A stretch of DNA of 64,000 nucleotides from Alphaproteobacteria bacterium (GTDB taxonomy: Bacteria > Pseudomonadota > Alphaproteobacteria > Micropepsales > Micropepsaceae), in assembly GCA_947474565.1 (NCBI GenBank), contig CANJIS010000002.1, positions 62,001-126,000 of the forward strand, written 5' to 3'. Below are positions 420-24,056 of this stretch, piece after piece. The notes below the pieces were generated by a model, which was not told where the DNA came from, did not search any database, and worked only from the letters and a program-made list of their open reading frames with translations. Numbering within the stretch: the stretch's first letter is position 1; each line of letters starts with the position of its first letter. A program made the position numbers and the translations under genes.

Positions 420-2732
420 ATGAGCGAGATTTCCCGCCAGATCTGGGACATGAAATACCGCTTCAAGGCGCCAGAAGGCTTTGAAGGTGGCGGCGACCGC
501 GATGTCGCCGACAGCTGGACCCGCGTGGCCTATGCCCTGAGCCTGGCCGAAAAGCCGGCGGCGCGCCTGACCCATGCCAAGGACTTCGCGTCTGCCCTGG
601 CGGGTCACAAATTTCTGCCGGCGGGACGCATTCTGGCGGGCGCGGGCACGGGGCGCGCCGTCACCCTGTTCAACTGTTTTGTGATGGGCGCCATCCCTGA
701 TTCCATGGATGGGATTTTCGGAAGCCTGCGCGAGGCCGCTCTTACCCTGCAGCAGGGCGGCGGCATCGGTTATGACTTTTCCACGCTGCGGCCCAAGGGC
801 GCGCTGGTGAAAGGCGTGGGCGCGGATGCGTCCGGTCCCGTTTCCTTCATGGACGTATGGGACGCCATGTGCCGCACCATCATGAGTGCGGGCGCACGGC
901 GCGGCGCGATGATGGCGACCTTGCGCATCGACCATCCCGACATCGAGGAGTTCATCGACGCCAAGCGGACGAGCGGGCGGCTTTCCAATTTCAACCTGTC
1001 GGTGCTGGTGCCCAACACCTTCATGGAAGCGGTGAAGGCCGACCGCGACTGGAAGCTGCAATTCGGCGGCCGGGTTTTTTCTACCGTCAAGGCGCGGGCG
1101 TTGTGGGAGCGCATCATGCGCTCCACCTATGACTATGCCGAGCCGGGCGTGATTTTCATCGACCGCATCAACCAGGAAAACAATCTTTCCTATTGCGAGA
1201 GCATTCACGCCACCAATCCTTGCGGTGAACAGCCCTTGCCGCCTTATGGCGCCTGCCTGCTGGGTTCGATCAATCTGGCCAAGCTGGTGCGCAATGTTTT
1301 TGAAGACGGCGCATATCTGGACCTGGATGAGCTGGAGCGGCTGGTCACCATTGCCGTGCGTATGATGGATGACGCCATCGACGTGTCGCGCTTTCCGCTG
1401 GACGAACAGCGGCAGGAAGCTATTGCCAAGCGGCGGGTCGGGCTGGGCGTCACAGGCCTGGCCGACGCCCTGATCTTCTGCAAGACCCGGTATGGTTCGC
1501 CGGACAGCATTGCGCTGATCGAGCAATGGCTGTCAGCACTCAGTCACGCCGCCTATCGCGCTTCGGCGGCGCTGGCGGAGGAAAAGGGCGCCTTTCCCCT
1601 GTTCGAGCGCGAAGCCTATCTGGCGCGGCCGCATATCCAGGCCCTGCCGCGCGATATCCGTGATGCCATCGCCGCGCATGGGATCCGCAACGGGCTTCTC
1701 ACCTCCATCGCCCCCACCGGCACGATTTCGCTGTTCGCCGACAATGTCTCCAGCGGTATCGAGCCGGTCTTTGCCTTGAGCTACAGCCGCAAGGTACTGC
1801 AGCCGGATGGAGCCAAGCTTGAGGAAAGCGTGGAGGATTACGCGCTGCGCAAATTCCGGGCGCAGTTCGGCGCGGAAGCGGAACTGCCGGATTATTTCGT
1901 CACCGCCCAGACCATAAGCCCCGATGATCATTTGGCGGTGCAGGCGGCCTGCCAGCCCTTTATCGATTCGGCAATTTCCAAAACCATCAACGTGCCGCGC
2001 GAAATTTCCTTTGATGCCTTCAAGGATGTTTATCGCAAGGCCTATGAGGCGGGCTGCAAAGGCTGCACCACCTATCGGCCCAATGATGTCACCGGATCGG
2101 TGCTGCAGGTGGCGGACGTTCAAGAACCCAAGGACGTGGTGCCGGCGGAAGCCGTGATTGGCGCCGAGCCCGAATTGCCGCTGCCCTTGCCGGAACCGCG
2201 CTCGGCAAAAGGCGGCGTGGTCTATATGGCCAAGCCGCTGGATCGCCCGGAAGCGCTGCTGGGCCGCACTTACAAGATCAAATGGCTGGAAAGCGATCAC
2301 GCCTTCTACATCACCATCAACGACATTGAGAAAGACGGGCGGCGGCGGCCGTTCGAAGTGTTCATCAACTCCAAGAATATGGAAGCCTATGCCTGGGCCC
2401 TGGCGCTGACCCGCATGATCTCGGCGGTATTCCGGCGCGGCGGCGATGTGTCCTTTGTGGTGGAGGAGCTGAAGGCCATTTTCGATCCGCGCGGCGGGCA
2501 ATGGATGAACGGACGCTATGTGCCGTCCCTGCTGGCCGCCATTGGCGAAGTGATTGAGCGCCACATGATGGAGATCGGCTTTCTGGGCCAGCGCATACCG
2601 AATGTGGTTCCTGCACCGGTTCCCCGTGAGGGTGCGCCAGCGCATTTCTGCCCCCGCTGCGGCGAGGCCAGCTTTGTGCATGTGGAAGGCTGCGATTCCT
2701 GCTTGTCCTGCGGCTATTCCAAATGCGGCTAA
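420..2732 (+). CDS. nrdJ: Adenosylcobalamin-dependent (class II) ribonucleoside-diphosphate reductase
   Basis: This 770-residue protein reduces ribonucleotides to deoxyribonucleotides with a B12-derived radical, so DNA precursor supply would not depend on oxygen. It has the ten-stranded alpha/beta-barrel signatures: an early active-site cysteine in LFNCFVMG (about residue 86), the radical-site motif NPCGE (266-270), and the phosphate-binding segment SIAPTGTISLFADN. The C-terminus is cysteine-rich (CPRC, then CDSC, CGYSKCG) and fits the swinging-arm/zinc-ribbon tail that re-reduces the active site. I place the start at the ATG at 420. An in-frame ATG at 354 adds 22 residues that do not look conserved. 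No nrdA/nrdB is visible in this window. Confidence 0.93.
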   Translation: MSEISRQIWDMKYRFKAPEGFEGGGDRDVADSWTRVAYALSLAEKPAARLTHAKDFASALAGHKFLPAGRILAGAGTGRAVTLFNCFVMGAIPDSMDGIFGSLREAALTLQQGGGIGYDFSTLRPKGALVKGVGADASGPVSFMDVWDAMCRTIMSAGARRGAMMATLRIDHPDIEEFIDAKRTSGRLSNFNLSVLVPNTFMEAVKADRDWKLQFGGRVFSTVKARALWERIMRSTYDYAEPGVIFIDRINQENNLSYCESIHATNPCGEQPLPPYGACLLGSINLAKLVRNVFEDGAYLDLDELERLVTIAVRMMDDAIDVSRFPLDEQRQEAIAKRRVGLGVTGLADALIFCKTRYGSPDSIALIEQWLSALSHAAYRASAALAEEKGAFPLFEREAYLARPHIQALPRDIRDAIAAHGIRNGLLTSIAPTGTISLFADNVSSGIEPVFALSYSRKVLQPDGAKLEESVEDYALRKFRAQFGAEAELPDYFVTAQTISPDDHLAVQAACQPFIDSAISKTINVPREISFDAFKDVYRKAYEAGCKGCTTYRPNDVTGSVLQVADVQEPKDVVPAEAVIGAEPELPLPLPEPRSAKGGVVYMAKPLDRPEALLGRTYKIKWLESDHAFYITINDIEKDGRRRPFEVFINSKNMEAYAWALALTRMISAVFRRGGDVSFVVEELKAIFDPRGGQWMNGRYVPSLLAAIGEVIERHMMEIGFLGQRIPNVVPAPVPREGAPAHFCPRCGEASFVHVEGCDSCLSCGYSKCG

Positions 2733-2777
2733 TTCTATGGTACGCGCTGGACCGCACATGACGGACGGTATCCCCGC

Positions 2778-3611
2778 GTGAACTATTCCTCCCGCTTCTG
2801 GCTTTTCGCACCGATCGCCCTTCTTCTGGCTGTCGCCGCCACCGCCATGGCGCGTTGGTATACCGTGGCCGGCGCAGTCGAGAAGAAACTGGACGCCGCG
2901 AACGGCCATGAGATTGCGCCCGGCATTACCCTGTCTTTTGCCGGCAAGAAGGTTTCGGGGTTCCCGTTCAACATCGATGTCGTGTTCGAGAAACTCGCGG
3001 TGGAAGGCCAGGGCGCGCATGGGCCGTTCCGATGGACCAGCGAGAACTTTGCCCTGCATCGCCTCACCTATGGCCGTGACCAGGGCATCTATGAAGCGGC
3101 GGGCAAGCAGACTCTGAACTGGACCGATGCGGGGGGCAGAAGCCATGGGCTGAATTTCTTGCCGGCCATGCTGCACGCCAGCACCGTTGCCGATGCCAAG
3201 GGGCTGGTGCGTTTCGATCTGGAAGCGGTGAACGCAGGCGGGCAGGACAGCGCCGGTGTGGCGTTCACGGCCGCCGATACCCAGGTCCATTTTCGCCGCG
3301 ATCCCAAAGCCGATGCCGTGGATCTTCAGTTGAGCGGCAGTGAGATCAAGGCGGGCGGCAACATTGCCGGCCTGTTCGGCGATCACATCAGCCGCATTTC
3401 GGTCTATGCCACCTTGAGCAAGGGTTCGGCCTTTGCGCCATTGCTGGCGGGCACGGGATCATGGGCGGATGCGTCGGCCGATTGGCGCGCCAAGGAAGGT
3501 CAGGCGGTGATGGGGCCGGTGGAGATAAAGTCCACGGGACTGAACCTCAACGCCACGGCCTTTGCCGATACGGGCGGCGATCTGGCGGCCGTATTTGATC
3601 CACTTTACTAG
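2778..3611 (+). CDS. DUF2125 domain protein, membrane-anchored and exported
   Basis: This 277-residue protein starts with GTG. It has an N-terminal hydrophobic segment (residues about 8-26, rich in Leu and Ala) that is either an uncleaved anchor or a signal peptide. The rest is a periplasmic beta-rich region with the phrase SFAGKKVSGFPFNIDVVF. That pattern is typical of DUF2125, an alphaproteobacterial family of unknown function often found near the aromatic amino-acid genes. Here it converges on tyrA, which lies about 40 bases away on the other strand. The gene starts 45 bases after the ribonucleotide reductase, so co-transcription is possible. No catalytic residues can be named. The family call rests on overall pattern and neighbourhood. 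Confidence 0.75.
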   Translation: MNYSSRFWLFAPIALLLAVAATAMARWYTVAGAVEKKLDAANGHEIAPGITLSFAGKKVSGFPFNIDVVFEKLAVEGQGAHGPFRWTSENFALHRLTYGRDQGIYEAAGKQTLNWTDAGGRSHGLNFLPAMLHASTVADAKGLVRFDLEAVNAGGQDSAGVAFTAADTQVHFRRDPKADAVDLQLSGSEIKAGGNIAGLFGDHISRISVYATLSKGSAFAPLLAGTGSWADASADWRAKEGQAVMGPVEIKSTGLNLNATAFADTGGDLAAVFDPLY

Positions 3612-3652
3612 CTCTTTTTTGATGGTCGCGCGGCCGGACGGAAAACCGCTAC

Positions 3653-4579
3653 TCACTTTTCCTGGCCGTCGCTCCGCTTATCGCGCCCGAAATTCGGCGA
3701 CGCGGTGTCCTGGCCGGCGGTGATGATGCCGCGCCGGATGGCGCGGGTCTGGGTGAACAGATCGAACAGCGCATCGCCATTGCCGTCGCGCACCCAGCGC
3801 TGCAGGCGGCTGAGATCTTCATTGAAACGGCCCAGCACTTCCAGCACCGCTTCGCGGTTGTTGAGAAATACGTCGCGCCACATGGTGGGGTCTGAGGCGG
3901 CGATGCGGGTGAAGTCGCGGAAACCGCTGGCGGAGTATTTGATCACTTCGCCTTCGGTGACCTGTTCCAGATCATGCGCCGTGCCCACGATGTTATAGGC
4001 GATCAGATGCGGCACATGACTGGTCATGGCCAGCACCAGATCGTGATGGGCGATATCCATCACATCCACCTGGGCGCCAAGCCCTTCCCAGAATTGCCGC
4101 ACGTCGGCGACAGCTTTTTCATCAGCGCCAGGCGGCGGGGTCAGGATGGTCCAGCGGCCATCGAACAGGCTGGCGAAGCCCGCTTCCGGGCCGGAAAACT
4201 CGGTGCCGGCGATGGGATGGGCGGGAATGAAATGCACGCCCTTTGGCACCGACGGGGAAATATCGCGGGCCACTGCGCCCTTGACCGAGCCCACATCGGA
4301 CAGGATGGCGCCAGGCTTAAGATGCGCGGCGATGCTTTCGGCCAATGATTTATAGGCCCCGACCGGCGTCGCCAGAATCACCAGATCGGCATTCTTCACT
4401 GCGTCTTCCAAAGTGGAGGCGACGCGGTCGGTGAAGCCCAGCTTGGCGGAACGGGCGCGAACGTCCTCGCTGGCGTCGAAGCCGACGATTTCGCCGGCCA
4501 CCTTACCGCGCTTGGCGGCATGGCCGATGGATGAGCCGATCAGGCCCAAACCGATAATGGCGAGTTTGCCGAAACTCAT
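3653..4579 (-). CDS. tyrA: Prephenate/arogenate (cyclohexadienyl) dehydrogenase
   Basis: This 308-residue enzyme carries out NAD(P)-dependent oxidative decarboxylation of prephenate or arogenate on the way to tyrosine. The N-terminus holds a clear Rossmann dinucleotide fold (IIGLGLIGSSIG). Next come DVGSVKG and HPIAGTEFSGPEAG, the substrate-binding stretch with the conserved His and Gly residues of TyrA. The all-helical C-terminal dimerisation domain contains SHVPHLIAYN. There is no fused chorismate mutase or ACT domain, so feedback control by tyrosine through ACT is not expected. The start ATG overlaps the hisC stop by 4 bases, so the two genes are probably translationally coupled. The sequence does not show whether prephenate or arogenate is preferred. 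Confidence 0.95.
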   Translation of the reverse strand: MSFGKLAIIGLGLIGSSIGHAAKRGKVAGEIVGFDASEDVRARSAKLGFTDRVASTLEDAVKNADLVILATPVGAYKSLAESIAAHLKPGAILSDVGSVKGAVARDISPSVPKGVHFIPAHPIAGTEFSGPEAGFASLFDGRWTILTPPPGADEKAVADVRQFWEGLGAQVDVMDIAHHDLVLAMTSHVPHLIAYNIVGTAHDLEQVTEGEVIKYSASGFRDFTRIAASDPTMWRDVFLNNREAVLEVLGRFNEDLSRLQRWVRDGNGDALFDLFTQTRAIRRGIITAGQDTASPNFGRDKRSDGQEK

Positions 4580-5676
4580 GAGCCCATGAACTCCTTCAAC
4601 GCGGCCACCACCAATTCATTGGCTTCGGCGGGACCGACAGTCAGGCGCAAACATTGCGGCAGCTTGTAGCTGCCCACGCCGCGAAGGATCAAACCACGGG
4701 CGCAAAGAAATTCATCGACCGCCTTGGCGTTCTTCGGCCCTTCCGGAAAATGGATCAGGATGAAATTGGCGACGCTGTCATCGACACGAAGGCCGGTCTT
4801 GCGGATTTCATCCGTCAGCCAGCGTTTCCATTTTTCATTGTGCGCGACAGCCTTGGCGAGGTGATCGCGGTCGCCGATAGAGGCCGCGCCCACCCGCGCC
4901 TGCAGATTGCCGACGTTGAAGGGACCACGGATGCGGTTGAGGATGCCGGCCACTTCGGTGGGCACATAGGCCCAGCCAATGCGCAGACCGGCCAGACCAT
5001 GAATCTTGGAGAAGGTGCGGGTCATCACCACATTGTCGAATTCGGTGACCAGCTTTGTGCCGTCTTCATAATCGGACGCGGTGACATATTCGCTGTAAGC
5101 GGAATCGATCACCAGCAGCACATTCTTCGGCAGCCCGACATGCAGACGGCGAAGCTCGGCGCTTGTGAGATATGTGCCCGTGGGATTGTTGGGATTGGCG
5201 ATATAGACCAGTCGCGTCCTGGGCGTGACCGCCTTCAACATGGCATCGACATCGACCTTGATGCCGTGATTGGTCGTCTTCTCCGCAACTTCGACGGGAC
5301 GGGCGCTGTTGGCCAGGGTGGCGATTTTGTAAACCAGGAAGGCGTGGGCGCTGAACAACACTTCGTCGCCCGGCGTCAGATACGCCGCCGCCAGCATGGT
5401 GAGCAGATAGTCGGAGCCGTCGCCGCTGCCGATGATGCGATCCGGATCAAGGTTCTCAGCGCTGCCGATAGCTTCGCGCAGGATGCGGGCGGTGCCTTCT
5501 GGATAGGCGCTGACATCACTGGCTGCGGTCTTGAGTGCTTCCAGCGCGGCGGGGCTGGGGCCCAGCGGGCTTTCGTTGGAAGAGAGCTTCCAGACTTTCT
5601 CAACCCCAGGCACGCTGGAGCGCCCGCCGACATAGAGCGAGATGTCCAGAATTCCGGGCCGGGGTGTGAGTGTCAT
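4576..5676 (-). CDS. hisC: Histidinol-phosphate / aromatic aminotransferase
   Basis: This 366-residue PLP enzyme belongs to the fold-type I aminotransferases. Visible landmarks are KLSSNESPLG near residue 30, NPNNPTGTY in the middle (the cofactor and substrate asparagine), DSAYSEY, and the Schiff-base lysine in TFSKIHGLAGLRIGW. HisC-type enzymes convert imidazole-acetol phosphate to histidinol phosphate. Alphaproteobacterial copies beside tyrA often also transaminate prephenate or phenylpyruvate, and the tyrA overlap here favours a role in Tyr/Phe synthesis. I chose the ATG at 5676; an upstream ATG at 5727 would add 17 poorly fitting residues. Confidence 0.93.
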   Translation of the reverse strand: MTLTPRPGILDISLYVGGRSSVPGVEKVWKLSSNESPLGPSPAALEALKTAASDVSAYPEGTARILREAIGSAENLDPDRIIGSGDGSDYLLTMLAAAYLTPGDEVLFSAHAFLVYKIATLANSARPVEVAEKTTNHGIKVDVDAMLKAVTPRTRLVYIANPNNPTGTYLTSAELRRLHVGLPKNVLLVIDSAYSEYVTASDYEDGTKLVTEFDNVVMTRTFSKIHGLAGLRIGWAYVPTEVAGILNRIRGPFNVGNLQARVGAASIGDRDHLAKAVAHNEKWKRWLTDEIRKTGLRVDDSVANFILIHFPEGPKNAKAVDEFLCARGLILRGVGSYKLPQCLRLTVGPAEANELVVAALKEFMGS

Positions 5677-17543: not shown

Positions 17544-18152
17544 TTAACGGACGAGCTGGATTGCATCGAATTCGGATTCTTCGGTGGCAGGGTCCGGCAG
17601 ATCGATGCGCAGCATGTTGCGGCCAATACCCACCAGCGCGCCGACCTGATCGTCAGGCGTGGTCACCGCGCCGACGGATGCGAAACGGCCGGAATAGCGA
17701 TGCCAGGGTTCGCCCTTGGCGCTTTGCGCGCCGAGATAGACCCACAGGCCACCATCTTCAGGATAGAGGTAACCCGCCATGCGCTGGGTGCCCTGTTTCT
17801 CAAACCACAGACTGCCATTGATGCGGCTGATGCTGCAGGGGAACCAGCTGAACACGGCATAACCGGTCATGCCGCCCAATTTCATCTGGCGGCAGCGCCA
17901 GCGGCCAATCAATACCTGTTCCGGGACGCCATGCGCTTCGGCGCCGAATGTTTCCTGAATGGCGCGGAAATCGCCGCTGCCGCCGCGCTGTTGCGCTTCC
18001 TTCACGCCCTGGGCGCGGGACTCTTCCAGATTGGTGAGGCGGTCGGCGTCGTAATTGCTGATTTGGTCACGCCAGCCAGCGAGAGCCGTTCCTGTCAGCG
18101 CGATCAGCGCGAGGAATGCAAAACCTGTCTTATGAAGCACCTTGTTCGTCAT
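17544..18152 (-). CDS. DUF4893 family exported protein
   Basis: This 202-residue protein has a clear signal peptide (basic start MTNKVLHK, hydrophobic core, likely cleavage after ALA near residue 25). The mature domain starts GWRDQISNYDADRLTNLEESR and includes LIGRWRCRQMKLGG, VFSWFPCSISR and GYLYPEDGGLWVYLG. This pattern fits DUF4893, an alphaproteobacterial periplasmic family without known activity. Two cysteines (RWRCR and FPCSIS) could form a disulfide. Its start overlaps the 3' end of fabI by 23 bases, so it is probably co-transcribed with fabA-fabB-fabI, though a link to fatty acid synthesis is only positional. Confidence 0.75.
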   Translation of the reverse strand: MTNKVLHKTGFAFLALIALTGTALAGWRDQISNYDADRLTNLEESRAQGVKEAQQRGGSGDFRAIQETFGAEAHGVPEQVLIGRWRCRQMKLGGMTGYAVFSWFPCSISRINGSLWFEKQGTQRMAGYLYPEDGGLWVYLGAQSAKGEPWHRYSGRFASVGAVTTPDDQVGALVGIGRNMLRIDLPDPATEESEFDAIQLVR

Positions 18153-19008
18153 GACCGTTCTCCGGGGGCGTCCAGCCCTTCAGATCCGTCGTCGGCGGCA
18201 TGCCGATGACGTTGAAGCCGGCGTCGACGAAATGCACTTCGCCGGTAACGCCGCCCGATAGGCCACTAAGCAAGTACAATGCCGCTCCGCCGACATGGTT
18301 AAGTTCCACGGAGCGTTTTAATGGGGCATGGCTTTTGTTCCACTTGAACACCATGCGGGCATCGCCCACCGCGCTGCCCGCAAGGGTGCGCATGGGGCCG
18401 GCCGAAATGGCGTTGACGCGGATATCGTCCCGGCCCAGATCGGCGGCGAGATAACGGACACTGGCTTCCAGCGCCGCCTTGGCCACGCCCATCACATTGT
18501 AGTTGGGCATCACGCGCTGCGCGCCCAGATAAGAGAGTGTCAGCATGGCGCCGCCGGGGTTCATCATCGCGGCGGCGCGGCGCGCCGCATCGGTGAAGGA
18601 AAAGCAGGAAATATCGAGGGTTTTGTGGAAATTGGTGCGGCTGGTTTCGATGTAGCGGCCCTTCAATTCCTTGGCGTCGGAGAACGCCAGGGAGTGCACC
18701 AGGAAATCCAGCTTGCCCCATTTCTTTGCCAGGGTGGCGAACACCGCATCCAATTGTGCTTCGTCTTCCACATCGCCCGGCAGCAGCAAGTCGGATCCAA
18801 CCGAATCCGCCAACGGCTTGAGGCGGCGGACATACGCTTCACCTTGATAGGTAAACGCTAGTTCCGCGCCATGGGAGGCCAGCATCTGGGCGATGCCCCA
18901 GGCAATGGAATGGTCGTTGGCGACGCCCATGATCAGGCCACGGCGTCCCGCCATCAGTCCCGTTTTGGCTTCAGCCATGATCGCCTCGCGCGGGGTTTTC
19001 TGTTCCAT
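18130..19008 (-). CDS. fabI: Enoyl-[acyl-carrier-protein] reductase (NADH)
   Basis: This 292-residue short-chain dehydrogenase reduces enoyl-ACP in the last step of each fatty-acid elongation cycle. The nucleotide-binding motif is GLIMGVANDHSIAWGIA, and the catalytic pair Tyr170-x6-Lys177 sits in NYNVMGVAKAALEASVRYLA, as in FabI rather than FabG-type reductases. RVNAISAGPMRTLAGSAVG is the substrate loop. The ATG at 19008 is 9 bases after fabB; an internal ATG at 18978 also has a plausible purine-rich site and gives the more usual FabI opening. It is the third gene of fabA-fabB-fabI. Confidence 0.96.
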   Translation of the reverse strand: MEQKTPREAIMAEAKTGLMAGRRGLIMGVANDHSIAWGIAQMLASHGAELAFTYQGEAYVRRLKPLADSVGSDLLLPGDVEDEAQLDAVFATLAKKWGKLDFLVHSLAFSDAKELKGRYIETSRTNFHKTLDISCFSFTDAARRAAAMMNPGGAMLTLSYLGAQRVMPNYNVMGVAKAALEASVRYLAADLGRDDIRVNAISAGPMRTLAGSAVGDARMVFKWNKSHAPLKRSVELNHVGGAALYLLSGLSGGVTGEVHFVDAGFNVIGMPPTTDLKGWTPPENGHDEQGAS

Positions 19009-19017
19009 TTTGAGACA

Positions 19018-20238
19018 TCACTTCTCTAGCCGCTGGAAAACCAGCGAGGCGTTGGTGCCGCCGAAGCCGAAGGAATTGGAAAGCGCGGTGTTGATCACGG
19101 CGTTATCGATCCGCTTGCGCACAATGTTGGCGCCTTCAACCGCCGGATCGAGTTCCTCGATATTGGCGCTTTCACAGATAAAGCCCGCCTGCATCATCAA
19201 CAGGCAGTAGATCGCTTCATGCACGCCGGCCGCACCCTGGCTGTGGCCCGTGAGGGATTTGGTGGCGCTGATGGGCGGGATCTTGTCGCCGAACACGATC
19301 TTGATGGCGTTGATTTCGGGGATGTCGCCAACCGGCGTCGAAGTGGCGTGGGGATTGATGTAATCCACCGGGCCCTTCACGTTCTGCAGCGCCATTTGCA
19401 TGCAGCGCACGGCGCCTTCGCCTGACGGCGCCACCATGTCAGCGCCATCGGCGGTTGCGCCATAGCCGACTATTTCGGCATAGATTTTCGCGCCGCGTGC
19501 GCGTGCGTGTTCCAGCTCTTCGAGAATCAGAATGCCGCCGCCGCCGGAAATGACAAAGCCGTCGCGATTCTTGTCATAGGCGCGCGAGGCCTTTTCCGGT
19601 GTGGCGTTGAATTTGGACGACATCGCGCCCATGGCATCGAACAATTCGCTGAGGGTCCAGTCCAGTTCTTCGCCGCCGCCGGCGAACATCATGTCCTGCT
19701 TGCCCCATTGAATCATTTCATAGGCATTGCCGATGCAATTGGCCGAGGTCGAGCAGGCGGACGAAATGGAATAATTCACGCCTTTGGTCTTGAACCAGGT
19801 CGAGAGATTGGCGGAGCAGGTGGAAGACATTGCCTTGGGCACCGCGAAAGGGCCGACCCGCTTGGGGCTTTTGTTTTCGCGGGTGGTGTCGGCGGCGGCG
19901 ACGATGGCTTTTGTGCTGGGGCCGCCGGATCCCACGATGAGGCCGGTGCGGGGATTGGAAATGTCATGCTCGGTCAGGCCGGCATCGGAGATGGCCTGTT
20001 GCATGGCGACCCAGCAATAACCGGCGCCATCGCCCTGAAAGCGCCGCGCCCTGCGATCCACCACTTCGTCGAGATTGATCTTGAGGCTGCCATGGACCTG
20101 GGAGCGGAAACCCAGGCGGACATAATCATCCGCCGTGACGATGCCGGATTTGGCATGACGCAGAGATTCTGTGACTTCCGATGCATTGTTGCCGATAGAC
20201 GAAACAATGCCGAGGCCGGTAACGACCACTCGTTTCAT
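19018..20238 (-). CDS. fabB: 3-oxoacyl-[acyl-carrier-protein] synthase I
   Basis: This 406-residue condensing enzyme elongates cis-3-enoyl-ACP in the FabA/FabB route to unsaturated fatty acids. The catalytic triad is visible: Cys162 in [12 protein letters not shown], a His in [11 protein letters not shown] near residue 298, and a His in [11 protein letters not shown] near 333. The C-terminal [15 protein letters not shown] is the usual KAS loop. It is paired with fabA, 22 bases upstream, which supports FabB rather than FabF. Transcription probably starts at the irr/fabA intergenic region and runs through fabI. Confidence 0.96.
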
Positions 20239-20260: not shown

Positions 20261-20818
20261 TTACGCGGACACAGGCGCGGTGGAGTTCTGGGCAAGCGCA
20301 GCAGCGGCGTCGGTGAACAGACCCACGCGCAGGCCCTTGGCTTCATAGATCACCTTACCATCAACTTTCATAACGCCGTCAGCGATGCCCAGCACCAGCC
20401 GCCGCATGATGACGCGCTTCAAGGTGACGATATAAGTGACCTTCTTGGCATTGGGCAGCACCATGCCGGTGAATTTGACTTCATCGACGCCAAGCGCCCG
20501 GCCCTTGCCGATGCCACCCATCCAGCCCAGGAAAAAACCGACCATCTGCCACAGCGCATCAAGCCCCAGGCAACCGGGCATCACCGGATCGCCTTCGAAA
20601 TGGCATTTGAAGAACCAGAGATTGGGATTCACATCGAGTTCGGCGATCACTTCGCCTTTGCCGTCCGCGCCGCCATCTTCCGTAATGGATGTGATGCGGT
20701 CGAACATCAGCATGGGCGGCATGGGCAGCTGGGCATTGCCGGGACCGAACAACTCGCCGCTGGCGCAGGACAAAAGTCCCGCCATATCAAAACTCGACCT
20801 TTTCACCGGCTTGTCCAA
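20261..20818 (-). CDS. fabA: 3-hydroxydecanoyl-ACP dehydratase/isomerase
   Basis: This 185-residue hot-dog-fold enzyme dehydrates 3-hydroxydecanoyl-ACP and isomerises the trans-2 product to cis-3, committing chains to unsaturated fatty acids. Catalytic His73 lies in [16 protein letters not shown] and the acidic partner Asp87 in [11 protein letters not shown], matching the FabA active site. It is the first gene of fabA-fabB-fabI and is divergent from the iron regulator irr. A perfect Irr-type inverted repeat lies about 88-102 bases upstream of its ATG, so iron- or heme-dependent control of membrane unsaturation is possible but unproven. Confidence 0.96.
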
Positions 20819-20900
20819 TGTCCTGTTCCCTTTAAAAACGGGGTCTTTTCAATAACGCCCCAGCCGGAAATGGGCGGCATGCCCGGCTTTTTTGCCTTTT

Positions 20901-20928
20901 CTTGCTTAGAAACGTTCTAATGTATAAT
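20901..20928 (+). promoter_or_regulatory. Probable irr promoter
   Basis: The -10 is a perfect TATAAT (20923-20928). A weak -35, CTTGCT (20901-20906), lies 16 bases upstream. The Irr box fills the spacer, so binding would occlude RNA polymerase. The irr ATG follows about 68 bases after the -10. Confidence 0.55.
20906..20920. promoter_or_regulatory. Irr box (iron control element) between fabA and irr
   Basis: TTAGAA-ACG-TTCTAA is a perfect 15-bp inverted repeat matching the inner core of the rhizobial iron control element bound by Irr (TTTAGAA-N3-TTCTAAA). It lies in the spacer of the likely irr promoter, just before the -10 TATAAT at 20923-20928. That position fits autorepression. It could also act on fabA in the opposite direction. 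Confidence 0.8.
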
Positions 20929-20996
20929 CTGCATTCACTCTAGCAGGGATCGGCGGCTTTGGCAGCGTCCCGGCTTTGATCAAGGAACCCGCCCCC

Positions 20997-21428
20997 ATGG
21001 GCAAAGCGACACGCGAGAATTCCAGCCCGGCACCGTTTGCGGCGGAGAAGTTGCGCACCGCCGGGCTTCGCCCCACCCGTCAGCGTATGGAATTGGCCGC
21101 GCATCTATTCTGTGGCGATGACCGGCATGTGACAGCGGAAAGCCTGCACGACGAAGTGGCCCGGGCCGGCATCAAAGTGTCGCTGGCCACGGTCTACAAC
21201 ACTCTGCACCAATTCACCGCCGCAGGCCTGCTGCGCCAGGTCGTTGTGGATGCGGTACGCGGCTATTTCGACACCAATACCGGCGATCACCAGCACTTCT
21301 TCCTTGAGGATGAAGGCACCCTGATCGACATTCCCGGCGAAGCCATTCAGGTCGCCGGGGTTCCGGCTGCCCCCGCCGGCATGGCGGTAGACCGGGTGGA
21401 TGTGGTCGTCCGGGTCAAACGGACCTGA
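20997..21428 (+). CDS. irr: Iron response regulator Irr (Fur family)
   Basis: This 143-residue Fur-superfamily regulator has the winged helix GLRPTRQRMELAAHLF...HVTAESLHDEVARAGIKVSLATVYNTLHQFTAAGLLRQ and a short dimerisation/metal domain beginning YFDTNTGDHQHFFLEDEGTLIDIPG. The GLRPTRQRM opening and the Asp-rich acidic stretch are Irr-like rather than Fur-like. Irr senses heme availability and controls iron and heme genes through iron control elements, two of which flank this gene. I see no N-terminal GLCP-type heme regulatory motif, and the usual HHH cluster reads DHQH. I chose the ATG at 20997, with AAGGA upstream, over a TTG at 20976. The irr-fabA-fabB-fabI order is conserved in other alphaproteobacteria. 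Confidence 0.9.
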   Translation: MGKATRENSSPAPFAAEKLRTAGLRPTRQRMELAAHLFCGDDRHVTAESLHDEVARAGIKVSLATVYNTLHQFTAAGLLRQVVVDAVRGYFDTNTGDHQHFFLEDEGTLIDIPGEAIQVAGVPAAPAGMAVDRVDVVVRVKRT

Positions 21429-21438
21429 TTCTATCTTC

Positions 21439-21455
21439 TTTAGAATTATTCTAAA
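21439..21455. promoter_or_regulatory. Irr box upstream of rubrerythrin
   Basis: TTTAGAA-TTA-TTCTAAA is an exact 17-bp match to the iron control element consensus. It sits 11 bases after the irr stop and ends 5 bases before a TTGACA -35. This spacing could support activation from upstream or repression by overlap. The same regulator gene lies immediately upstream. Confidence 0.88.
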
Positions 21456-21460
21456 AAATG

Positions 21461-21490
21461 TTGACAGGGCCTGTCGACAGGCCCAAGCTT
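21461..21490 (+). promoter_or_regulatory. Likely rubrerythrin promoter with an 18-bp palindrome in the spacer
   Basis: A consensus -35 TTGACA (21461-21466) is followed at the right distance only by weak -10 candidates (AAGCTT near 21485). Bases 21467-21484 form the perfect palindrome GGGCCTGTCGACAGGCCC, filling the -35/-10 spacer. It could be an operator for a second regulator or shape the transcript start. The poor -10 suggests the promoter may need an activator. Confidence 0.5.
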
Positions 21491-21519: not shown

Positions 21520-21942
21520 ATGCCCGGACTGAAAGACACCAAGACCTGGGAAAACCTGAAAGAGGCGTTTGCCGGCGAAAGCCAGGCCAATCGCCGCTAC
21601 CTCTATTTCGCACAGAAGGCGGACGTGGAAGGCCATAACGATGTCGCCGCCGTGTTCCGCTCGACCGCGGAAGGCGAGACCGGCCATGCTCATGGCCATC
21701 TGGAATATCTCGAAGAAGTGGGCGATCCGGCGACCGGCGAACCCATCGGCGCCACCGATGCCAACCTCAAGGCTTCGATCGCGGGCGAGACCCACGAATA
21801 CACTGACATGTATCCGGGCATGGCCAAGACCGCCCGCACCGAAGGCTTTGACGAAATCGCCGACTGGTTCGAGACGCTTGCGAAAGCAGAGAAGAGTCAC
21901 GCCGGCCGCTTCCAAAAGGCGCTCGACAGCCTCGGTAAATAA
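21520..21942 (+). CDS. Rubrerythrin-family diiron protein (no rubredoxin domain)
   Basis: This 140-residue four-helix-bundle protein carries the ferritin-like diiron signatures in order: [13 protein letters not shown] (residues about 15-28), [16 protein letters not shown] (about 50-65), [15 protein letters not shown] (about 88-102) and [16 protein letters not shown] (about 121-136). The Glu/His residues of these motifs bind two irons. The rubredoxin-like FeS4 domain of classical rubrerythrin is absent. Family members reduce peroxide or handle iron. An exact Irr box precedes the gene and a strong terminator follows, so it is probably monocistronic and heme/iron-regulated. Its neighbours, an Fe-S/CCG protein and DUF3501, form a recurring trio of unknown joint function. 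Confidence 0.92.
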
Positions 21943-21959
21943 TATTCACCGCGCATAAC

Positions 21960-21998
21960 AATGGCCGCGCGGAATACTCTGCGCGGCCATTATTTTTT
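21960..21998 (+). terminator. Rho-independent terminator of the rubrerythrin gene
   Basis: AATGGCCGCGC (21960-21970) pairs perfectly with GCGCGGCCATT (21981-21991) around a 10-base loop, followed by ATTTTTT. This is the clearest intrinsic terminator in the window. It lies 18 bases after the stop. Confidence 0.92.
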
Positions 21999-22129
21999 CC
22001 AACCGGATATTGCATGGTTTCTCACACGGAGCAGCAGCCAGGAAAAGCGGGAACCGCTTTTCCGTCCGGCTGTGCGACCATCAAAAAACCGAGCGTGACG
22101 CCTCCGGCCTATAAAGATAGGCTCGCATC

Positions 22130-23467
22130 ATGACGTCACGCGAAGGCTCTCTGGACGCGCCGACCCGGCACATCATCGACTGGACGAATCCGGATTTTGC
22201 CGATCCGGTGAAGCTGGACGAAGAGATGCGGCGGGTGTTCGACATCTGTCATGGCTGCCGCCGCTGCTTCAATCTTTGCGATTCTTTTCCCCGCCTGTTC
22301 GACCTGATCGACAACAGCCCCAATGAAGAATTGGCGGATGTGACGTCGGAGGAATTCAAGCCCGTCGTCGAAGCCTGCACGCTTTGCGACATGTGCTTTA
22401 TGACAAAATGCCCCTATGTGCCGCCGCATCCGTTCCAGCTTGATTTTCCGCATCTGATGCTGCGCCACCGCTTCGTCGAGGCGAAGAAGGGTCATGTCGA
22501 TCACACCCAGCGGCAACTGGCGGAGATGGACCGCAACGGCACCTTGGCGCGTGCGGCATCGCCGGTGATCAACTGGGCCTCGGACAAATCCAACAAGCCG
22601 ATGCGCGCGATGATCGAAAATGTGGCGGGCATCGACCGCAACGCCGATCTGCCCAAATTCCACACCCGCACCTTCGTGTCGGCGGACAAGAGCCATCCGA
22701 TCACGCCCAATCCGGCGGCGCCGGCTTTCGCCAAGCGCAAGGCAGCGCTCTATGCCACCTGCTTCGTCAACTACAACAAGCCGGTCACCGGCATGGCGGC
22801 GCGCGCCGTGCTCAACCACATCGGCGTGGAAACCAAGGCCGCCTATCCCGGCTGTTGCGGCATGCCCTTCCTGGAACAGGCCGAACTTTCACGCGTGGCG
22901 GACAACGCCGCCAAAGTGTCCAAGGAATTGGTCAAGCTGATTGATGAGGGTTACGACATTGTCGCCCTCACCGCCTCTTGCGGGCTGATGCTGAAATTTG
23001 AATGGGCGCTGATCGCGCCAAACAATCCTGATGTGAAAAAAGTGGCGGACGCCACCTTCGACATTGACGAGTATGTGGTGGACATCGCCAAGAAAGAGGG
23101 CCTGCCGGAAGGTCTGGCGCCGCTGCCCGAAGGCGTCACTGTGCATCTGGCCTGTCACGCCAGGGCGCAGAATATGGGCCCCAAAGCGGCAGAAATGCTG
23201 AAGCTGATTCCGGGAACGCCGGTGGATGTGATCGAGCGCTGCTCCGGCCATGGCGGCACCTTCGGCGTGGTCAAGCCCACCCATGACGTGGCGGTGAAAG
23301 TCGGCCGCCCGGTCTATCGCACCACCAACACGGGGCAGCGCGGTCATATCGTGTCCGATTGCCCGCTGGCGGCGCAGCATATTTTCAACCACACCGAAAC
23401 CCCCGCGCGCGAACCGGAGCATCCGATTCAGATCATGGCGCGCAGCTATGGGTTGCTGGAGAGCTGA
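22130..23467 (+). CDS. Heterodisulfide reductase-related Fe-S protein (GlpC-like, two CCG domains)
   Basis: This 445-residue soluble protein has two [4Fe-4S] motifs near the N-terminus: CHGCRRCFNLC (about residues 42-52) and CTLCDMCFMTKCP (about 83-95). Two CCG-type cysteine domains follow: ATCFVNY...YPGCCGMPF in the middle and LACHARAQNMG...ERCSGHGG, where the second CCG reads CSGHGG. This matches GlpC/HdrB-type electron carriers that pass electrons between flavoproteins and quinones or thiols. There is no membrane segment. It is separated from the rubrerythrin gene by 187 bases containing a terminator. Its stop lies just before the ATG of the DUF3501 gene, so those two form an operon. The substrate is unknown; peroxide reduction through the rubrerythrin is a reasonable hypothesis. 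Confidence 0.88.
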   Translation: MTSREGSLDAPTRHIIDWTNPDFADPVKLDEEMRRVFDICHGCRRCFNLCDSFPRLFDLIDNSPNEELADVTSEEFKPVVEACTLCDMCFMTKCPYVPPHPFQLDFPHLMLRHRFVEAKKGHVDHTQRQLAEMDRNGTLARAASPVINWASDKSNKPMRAMIENVAGIDRNADLPKFHTRTFVSADKSHPITPNPAAPAFAKRKAALYATCFVNYNKPVTGMAARAVLNHIGVETKAAYPGCCGMPFLEQAELSRVADNAAKVSKELVKLIDEGYDIVALTASCGLMLKFEWALIAPNNPDVKKVADATFDIDEYVVDIAKKEGLPEGLAPLPEGVTVHLACHARAQNMGPKAAEMLKLIPGTPVDVIERCSGHGGTFGVVKPTHDVAVKVGRPVYRTTNTGQRGHIVSDCPLAAQHIFNHTETPAREPEHPIQIMARSYGLLES

Positions 23468-23468
23468 C

Positions 23469-24056
23469 ATGCCCGAAGCCGTCCGTAAAATTACCAGCGC
23501 CGATATTCTGTCCCTGAAGGAATATGACCAGCAGCGCGCCAATCTGAAAAAGAATCTGCTGCCGGTGAAAAAACTGCGTCGTGTGGAAGTCGGCCCGTTC
23601 GCCACGTTCTATTTCGAGAATTACGCGACCATGTGGCTGCAGGTGCAGGAAATGCTGCGCATCGAAAAAGGCGGCGAAGAACAGTTGGCGGGCGAGCTGG
23701 AAGCTTATAATCCGCTCATTCCCCAGGGCGATGAGCTGATCGCCACCATGATGCTGGAAATCGAAGACGCCGAGCGCCGCAGCAAGGTGCTGCTGACGCT
23801 GGGCGGTGTCGAAGAAACGGTGTTCATGGAAGTGGGCGGCGAGACCATCAAGGCGACGCCCACCGAATATGATGATCGCACCACGCCCGACGGCAAGACG
23901 TCATCGGTGCATTGGCTGCGCTTCAAGCTGACCAAGGAGCAGGTCGCGCGCTTCGCCAAGGAGCGGGTGGTGATCGGTGTCGGCCACAAGAATTATGGCC
24001 ATATGGCAGTGCTGGGCGATGACGCCAAAGCGGCGCTGGCAAAGGACTTTGATTAA
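23469..24056 (+). CDS. DUF3501 family protein
   Basis: This 195-residue soluble protein starts MPEAVRKITSADILSLKEYDQQR and includes RVEVGPFATFYFENYATMWLQVQEMLRIEKGGEEQLAGELEAYNPLIP across the N-terminal half. It ends FAKERVVIGVGHKNYGHMAVL. This fits DUF3501, which is nearly always next to a rubrerythrin and a GlpC-like Fe-S protein; no biochemical role is established. The ATG is 1 base after the upstream stop, so translation is coupled. The start at 23469 is preferred over one seven codons upstream that overlaps the Fe-S gene. The stop overlaps the end of the convergent acyl-CoA synthetase gene. Confidence 0.85.
   Translation: MPEAVRKITSADILSLKEYDQQRANLKKNLLPVKKLRRVEVGPFATFYFENYATMWLQVQEMLRIEKGGEEQLAGELEAYNPLIPQGDELIATMMLEIEDAERRSKVLLTLGGVEETVFMEVGGETIKATPTEYDDRTTPDGKTSSVHWLRFKLTKEQVARFAKERVVIGVGHKNYGHMAVLGDDAKAALAKDFD

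Follow-up and report, generated by a model that had tools for sequence, protein, structure and literature searches.

Irr is generally read as an iron/heme regulator, with bacterioferritin as a textbook target, and in Brucella it reportedly regulates its own gene. The Irr regulons of Bradyrhizobium japonicum and Rhizobium leguminosarum are centered on heme synthesis, bacterioferritin, the membrane protein MbfA, and iron uptake. The B. japonicum protein is described as oxidizing itself in dependence on heme and iron; it conserves the five metal ligands of PerR, of which H63, the equivalent of PerR H37, is oxidized (Kitatsuji et al. 2016, PMC4700492). For Rhodobacter sphaeroides, Irr boxes are described at mbfA and ccpA, together with an irr mutant that is more resistant to H2O2 and a low affinity of about 800 nM (PMC3413700), and in D. 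shibae, the Irr protein generally falls under oxidative stress (PMC8007024). Irr, its iron control element (ICE), and links between Irr and peroxide are therefore already known in parts. The PerR regulon of Bacillus subtilis is described as comprising katA, ahpCF, mrgA/dps, fur, and the hem operon (PMC8115020); the word Irr is absent from this review of peroxide sensing, as judged by a word search. In the literature searched, we found no description of a peroxide regulon under Irr, and the 2006 computational regulon of Rodionov et al., which lies outside this comparison, may list parts of one.

Here, we analyzed a window of 64,000 nucleotides (the whole stretch of DNA under study), in which irr lies between genes for fatty acid synthesis and a gene for a rubrerythrin. 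In all counts given below, "the genus" refers to Rhizomicrobium-like alphaproteobacteria, with a main sample of 60 genomes. From the distribution of Irr boxes in these genomes, we consider it probable that Irr acts here as an autorepressed, PerR-like repressor of a small peroxide-defense regulon.

In the window, irr (20997–21428, forward strand; ATG at 20997, alternative TTG at 20976) encodes an IrrA-type regulator of the Fur family (Pfam FUR). It is divergent from fabA (20261–20818, reverse strand), which encodes a 3-hydroxydecanoyl-ACP dehydratase (NCBIfam TIGR01749, 281.9 bits, cut-off 238); beyond fabA lie fabB (19018–20238; NF005935, 727 bits) and, further on the same side, fabI (18130–19008; PRK06505, 440 bits, just below the cut-off of 446). 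In the other direction, irr is followed on the forward strand by the rubrerythrin gene rbr (21520–21942; Pfam PF02915, 102 bits), a gene for a GlpC/HdrD-like Fe-S protein with a CCG domain (22130–23467; Pfam CCG), and a gene for a protein of DUF3501 (23469–24056; Pfam PF12007, 197 bits), a family without known function. The latter two genes likely belong to the rbr operon, and their order is kept in relatives. Two boxes flank irr: box 1, TTAGAA-ACG-TTCTAA (TTAGAAACGTTCTAA, 20906–20920), between fabA and irr, and box 2, TTTAGAA-TTA-TTCTAAA (TTTAGAATTATTCTAAA, 21439–21455), 3' of irr and upstream of rbr. This order, in which fabA-fabB-fabI lead away from the first box and rbr, the CCG protein gene, and the DUF3501 gene follow the second, was found across the genus.

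Box 1 is surrounded by a candidate -35 element, TCTTGC (20900–20905, forward strand), and a candidate -10 element, TATAAT (20923–20928, forward strand), so that it falls exactly within the 17-base spacer of a candidate irr promoter, as an earlier note on this DNA had proposed; a consensus built from 60 distinct irr-side boxes shows bases resembling tTcTt ahead of the box. Behind box 2 lies TTGACA (21461–21466, forward strand), a candidate -35 element of rbr. The same note had placed it 6 bases after the box, which holds when counted from the 15-mer core, while the distance from the 17-mer is 5 bases. In 46 of 50 distinct rbr-side boxes, the 15-mer is followed after 4 to 6 bases by a TTGACA matching in at least 5 of 6 positions.

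The two exact boxes that had been reported to bracket irr are thus present at these places, and they stand far above chance. The exact 15-mer TTAGAA-N3-TTCTAA has 2 sites in the whole 2.18-Mb genome, both at irr and 534 bp apart, against a chance expectation of 0.007 to 0.016 sites calculated from the base composition of the window. A looser search for the 17-mer at up to 3 mismatches gave 2 matches in the 64-kb window, a weak count equaled in 10 of 100 shuffles, and the exact genome-wide and genus-wide counts were used instead. At up to 1 mismatch, 4 sites were found in the same genome, the only further ones lying ahead of katG (92 bp from the start) and of a Dps-like gene (20 bp). Since a reversed control pattern also gave 4 sites at this threshold, the katG and dps sites count only through the genes they precede. 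The KatG of this genome scores above its cut-offs, and the Dps-like protein carries the ferritin-like domain of Pfam and matches Dps models best, with scores under the NCBIfam cut-offs.

Both boxes are conserved in the genus. With 1 mismatch allowed, the irr-side box was found at all 33 main irr loci of a first genus set (L001–L031, L034, and L036), 32 times exactly, and the rbr-side box at each of the 28 loci in this set with an adjacent rbr gene (26 exact), the other 5 of 33 being without one. With its box in the irr promoter region at 33 of 33 loci, autoregulation is likely, and with 28 of 28 loci so is control of the rbr operon by Irr, both of which the earlier note had inferred. Exceptions for rbr are 2 other genus loci, L110 and L359, which have no rbr-side box at up to 1 mismatch and count against the reading we favor. 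No box was found at 3 extra loci with Irr paralogs (L035, L043, and L044). In L035 (6032–9734), the paralog forms a cluster with katG, and an oxyR-like gene is divergent from it.

The rbr product itself is a 140-aa rubrerythrin with a ferritin-like domain only and no rubredoxin domain; against the NCBIfam rubrerythrin model it falls below the cut-off, and the match reaches only position 144 of 194. Speculatively, the CCG Fe-S protein and the DUF3501 protein encoded downstream (21520–24056 for the 3 genes) may donate electrons to this rubredoxin-less enzyme. As a soluble protein, it differs from blr7895, the Bradyrhizobium target of Irr called "rubrerythrin-like", which is described as an MbfA homolog (PMC3413700). 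A perfect 18-bp palindrome, GGGCCTGTCGACAGGCCC (21467–21484), lies directly behind the TTGACA of the rbr promoter and is, by eye, only partly kept in relatives. Just upstream of the rbr-side box, relatives carry a palindrome like TGAGAATNATTCTCA (1982–1996 in L010, 1459–1473 in L019, and others), for which a loose pattern matches 15 of 50 distinct rbr promoters; sites of a similar kind, resembling TGACAATCATTCTCA, occur upstream of bacterioferritin genes. The palindrome near rbr may be a site of the other Fur protein, adding an iron input.

Across the 60 genus genomes, the exact pattern occurred 124 times in forward orientation, against 4 times for the reversed control. At least 1 exact site is present in 56 genomes, and the 4 genomes without one count against the favored reading. 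When sites were assigned to genes by hand, 94 belonged to the irr cassette (upstream of irr itself or within the rbr slot), 13 fell at peroxiredoxin genes, 13 at katG (in G001, the contig fits just a 45-residue katG fragment), and 2 at poxB-like genes. Only 2 sites (G032:C98 and G065:C11) were left without a gene assignment, and 120 of the 124 lie at irr, the rbr slot, katG, or a peroxiredoxin gene. Among the 122 exact sites with an assignment, none was located at a gene for heme synthesis or iron uptake. The poxB-like genes, which encode a quinone-dependent pyruvate dehydrogenase, have their boxes at 3042 in L149 (identified by model) and at 2972 in L164 (by resemblance).

A gene-centered test, in which a box with up to 2 of 12 mismatches was sought within about 250 bp upstream and compared with shuffles that keep base composition only, pointed to 3 gene families. 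All 30 loci of an AhpC-type peroxiredoxin carried a box (28 of them with up to 1 mismatch; 0.13 expected), as did 18 of 25 katG loci (0.09 expected) and 8 of 28 dps loci (0.12 expected). The dps boxes were concentrated among closer homologs, with 7 of 13 boxed at 63% identity or more and 1 of 15 among more distant ones. No site at up to 2 mismatches was found in the downstream control regions. The loci without a box at this threshold (7 of the 25 for katG and 6 among the 13 closer ones for dps) count against the favored reading; the boxless katG loci are L200, L201, L204, L207 (short upstream region), L208 and L223 (each adjoining an oxyR or oxyR-like gene), and L218. For katG, 26 of 30 rows were given, leaving out the partial L215, L216, L217, and L222, and 25 were scored, the 45-residue fragment L219 having no match; for dps, 28 of 30 were scored (L282 and L283 had no match); for peroxiredoxin, all 30 given were scored, with 2 fragments (G081 and G032) left out. 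The peroxiredoxin family was named from a relative, L285 (Pfam AhpC-TSA; 67% identical), and a close copy is missing from the genome of the window (best match 7.6e-19, 37% identity). In L156, L161, L167, L173, and L179, a gene divergent from katG, ilvD, which encodes an Fe-S dehydratase, lies on the far side of the katG box and might be affected too. Bacterioferritin, which served as a negative control, was rejected as an Irr target in the genus, as none of 29 promoters, scanned from the likely start, had a box at up to 2 mismatches (one of the 29 offers 81 bases only). The katG, peroxiredoxin, and dps genes had been missed by the earlier note, and their boxes point to a peroxide-defense regulon rather than an iron/heme regulon.

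Outside the genus, the peroxide theme appears to continue in a less pure form. The exact 17-mer was found in 35 of 240 sampled alphaproteobacterial genomes. Among 30 loci from this class-wide set, one per genome, 19 are at peroxide-type genes: 9 at rbr (two of them in the genus), 5 at dps, 3 at peroxiredoxin, and 1 each at a catalase and a CCP/MauG-type peroxidase. This suggests that the theme reaches beyond the genus, which presents it in nearly pure form. The other loci, 3 at sufB-type genes and 8 at genes that are unclear or of other kinds, count against the favored reading; the sufB-type genes preceded by exact 17-mers belong to other alphaproteobacterial families (L288, identified by model, and L287 and L289, by resemblance).

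Several genomes offer natural experiments. In L346 (genome G069; 2265–5557), katG occupies the slot of rbr and the CCG protein gene behind the same box and TTGACA, and a DUF3501 gene (40% identical) comes next; judging from this arrangement, one peroxide scavenger is exchanged for another under what is predicted to be the same control. Among 37 genus genomes searched, 3 have no Irr match. Two of these, G003 (91% complete) and G018 (89% complete), are free of boxes even when 1 mismatch is allowed, although the reversed pattern gives 4 and 3 sites, respectively. In the third, G011 (75% complete), a single exact box precedes a peroxiredoxin gene, which counts against the favored reading, but its irr may merely be missing from the assembly. 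Near putative target promoters, the TTAGAA-N3-TTCTAA palindrome thus appears to track the presence of irr, as described for the ICE. In G003, katG is divergent from an adjoining oxyR-like gene, which lies in two frames and is 64–65% identical to that of G034; in G034, katG likewise has no box and a divergent oxyR-like gene, and an Irr paralog lies directly 3' of it.

OxyR-like genes, scored at 200 bits or more, are rare in the genus: they were detected in 2 of 60 genomes (3 with the two-frame gene of G003), compared to 30 of 94 other members of the class, many of them with small genomes. The cut-off of 200 bits is our own choice, as no genome in either sample reaches the family cut-off of 329. 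It was set by the gap that separates scores of about 200–294 bits from the bulk of LysR proteins, under about 140 bits; a few proteins of 168–191 bits fall into this gap, all in genomes that already have a higher OxyR-like score.

The Irr of the window is classed as such by 2 family models (NCBIfam NF045678, IrrA, 199.9 bits, cut-off 150; NF045677, 185.4 bits, cut-off 170), and misses the cut-offs of the PerR models (PerRB, 69.7 bits of 250; PerRA, 50.1 of 200), so that it may work like PerR yet is classed as Irr. Numbered from the ATG at 20997, its residues H44, D92, H98, H100, and D111 align with the ligands H37, D85, H91, H93, and D104 of PerR (2fe3), and each of these five PerR-type ligands is kept in 107–108 of 110 Irr sequences. 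The HxH heme site reads HQH at residues 98–100 in the same numbering; HxH is present in 107 of the 110 sequences, 89 of which have HQH. Two further motifs are missing from the window Irr. The Cys-Pro (CP) heme motif occurs in 8 of the 110 sequences, at varying places and in some cases perhaps in over-extended N-termini, and CxxC motifs, typical of the structural zinc site of PerR, in 1. The CP motif, of the B. japonicum type, is described as not needed for the Irr family overall (PMC7762939).

Compared with the systems introduced above, this Irr shares its NCBIfam family, its box, the HxH site, and the five PerR-type ligands with those of B. japonicum and R. leguminosarum, but in this lineage boxes stand at irr, rbr, katG, peroxiredoxin, and dps and not at bacterioferritin, and the window protein has no CP motif. 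Its predicted targets, by box positions, resemble those of B. subtilis PerR in comprising a catalase, a peroxiredoxin, Dps, and the regulator's own gene, and the five metal ligands and a palindromic box are common to both, whereas the window protein is an Irr by family models and lacks the CxxC motifs. The PerR box, TTATAAT-N-ATTATAA, differs by one base per half from TTAGAAT-N-ATTCTAA, the form read in 23 of 50 rbr-side boxes. The 2 predicted box targets of R. sphaeroides Irr are both oxidative-defense genes as well. Unlike in the window lineage, peroxide stress is handled by OxyR in that species (PMC8007024), and boxes at rbr, katG, peroxiredoxin, and dps are not described in the available part of the R. 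sphaeroides study (PMC3413700).

The list of boxed genes as predicted Irr targets is strongly supported by the comparison of genomes. From the box positions, the genes behind them, their conservation, the rarity of OxyR, and the kept ligands, all of which can be read off the genomes, we infer that Irr is the protein that binds the boxes, that it represses, and that peroxide is its main signal. Under this model, Irr dimers would bind TTAGAA-N3-TTCTAA boxes at irr, at the rbr-CCG-DUF3501 operon, and, where present, at katG, peroxiredoxin, and dps, holding these promoters low. A rise in H2O2 would inactivate Irr, probably by iron-catalyzed oxidation at the H/D/H/H/D site and/or via heme, upon which the scavengers and the iron-sequestering Dps would be produced. 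As more Irr would be produced too, repression would be restored, and autorepression would reset the system. The box ends about 16–70 bp before the start codon at many katG, peroxiredoxin, and dps genes, and box 1 lies in the core of the irr promoter, which fits repression.

An alternative, which we hold to be rather doubtful, is that Irr acts in the classical way, with heme or iron as the signal: under iron limitation, it would repress rbr, katG, and dps, thereby sparing iron, and peroxide would be a side effect. KatG is a heme enzyme, Rbr a di-iron protein, and Dps an iron store, so that all 3 are iron related, and the HxH heme site is nearly universal among the sequences compared. AhpC-type peroxiredoxins, on the other hand, are a family of iron-free thiol enzymes, and yet this gene has the most consistent box of all; iron sparing leaves that box unexplained. 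Irr of Bradyrhizobium and Rhizobium is described as sensing heme and repressing iron-storage genes (PMC7762939), while in the genus bacterioferritin is unboxed, no assigned exact site lies at a heme synthesis or iron uptake gene, and the CP heme motif is missing from the window Irr and most others. It is also hardly probable that the boxes are bound mainly by a second Fur-family protein of the Fur/Mur type. Such a homolog is present in the genome of the window and in the other genus genomes of the 37-genome sample, boxes of Fur-family proteins look alike, and the box in G011 comes without an Irr match, though in an assembly only three-quarters complete. Against this, G003 and G018 retain this Fur homolog but have neither Irr nor box, and the box, which borders irr itself, fits the published ICE of Irr.

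Two other proposals would be compatible with the preferred reading of Irr as a peroxide-responsive repressor. One, which we regard as unlikely though worth keeping in view, is that Irr activates rbr from a box upstream of the -35 element, the sign of its action varying by target. The spacing of 4–6 bases between this box and TTGACA in 46 of 50 promoters would suit activation, and Rudolph is said to have reported positive ICE action in 2006. ICE action is described as possibly positive in a position-dependent manner (PMC7762939), and rubrerythrin of Pelagibacter as up 1.57-fold under iron limitation (PMC2864753). The positions of the boxes at katG, peroxiredoxin, dps, and irr argue for repression instead, as does the takeover of the rbr promoter in L346 by KatG, a scavenger. 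The other, very unlikely in our judgment, is that Irr also controls fabA-fabB-fabI through box 1 and couples unsaturated fatty acid synthesis to heme/iron, which the earlier note had brought up. Box 1 lies between the divergent genes, just 87 bp from the fabA start, in a conserved neighborhood, and an effect on fabA is conceivable given how short the intergenic region is. In relatives, the box is 55–142 bp from fabA and 40–157 bp from irr, and with distances this variable on both sides, distance alone does not decide. The window box sits amid the -35- and -10-like elements of irr, and matches to TATAAT in at least 5 of 6 positions within about 34 bp of the box were found towards irr in 15 of 60 boxes (7 of them 2 bp after the box) and towards fabA in 1 of 60, which weakly favors the irr side. 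Outside the genus, none of 35 loci with divergent fabA and irr has a box at up to 1 mismatch between the genes; 4 of these loci are of the PS1-clade/Rhodobiaceae type, and the rest are from Rhizobiales, mostly Brucella/Ochrobactrum, with two from one genome. The four PS1-clade-type loci (L111, L113, L114, and L128) carry an exact rbr-side box, and among 4 further non-genus fabA-irr loci (L033, L037, L041, and L042), L042 alone has a site between the genes, with 2 mismatches. Distant relatives keep fabA next to irr without the box, so that control of the fatty acid genes is not supported. Rather, fabA-fabB-fabI appear to be an old neighbor of irr and no evident target.

As far as the literature was searched, what appears to be new is the near-exclusive set of peroxide genes behind Irr boxes in an OxyR-poor lineage. 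A bolder version of the peroxide-repressor reading, tentative and somewhat short of an even chance in our estimation, is that Irr is the primary H2O2 sensor of this lineage: a direct, CP-less, PerR-like sensor using non-heme iron, which arose within the heme-responsive Irr family, assumed control of the entire peroxide regulon, and trades places with OxyR from genome to genome, for instance at katG in G003 and G034. If the regulon is almost purely one of peroxide defense in this soil and freshwater lineage, most members of which have no OxyR, annotations as "iron regulation" would be misleading there. If true, it would also provide a testable answer to what substitutes for OxyR and PerR when both are missing, and the natural series of genomes with Irr only, Irr plus OxyR, or OxyR only at katG would allow the exchange of regulator signal and regulon to be studied. 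Taken at the level of genomic patterns, the data suggest that Irr is the peroxide alarm of the cell rather than a controller of fatty acid synthesis.
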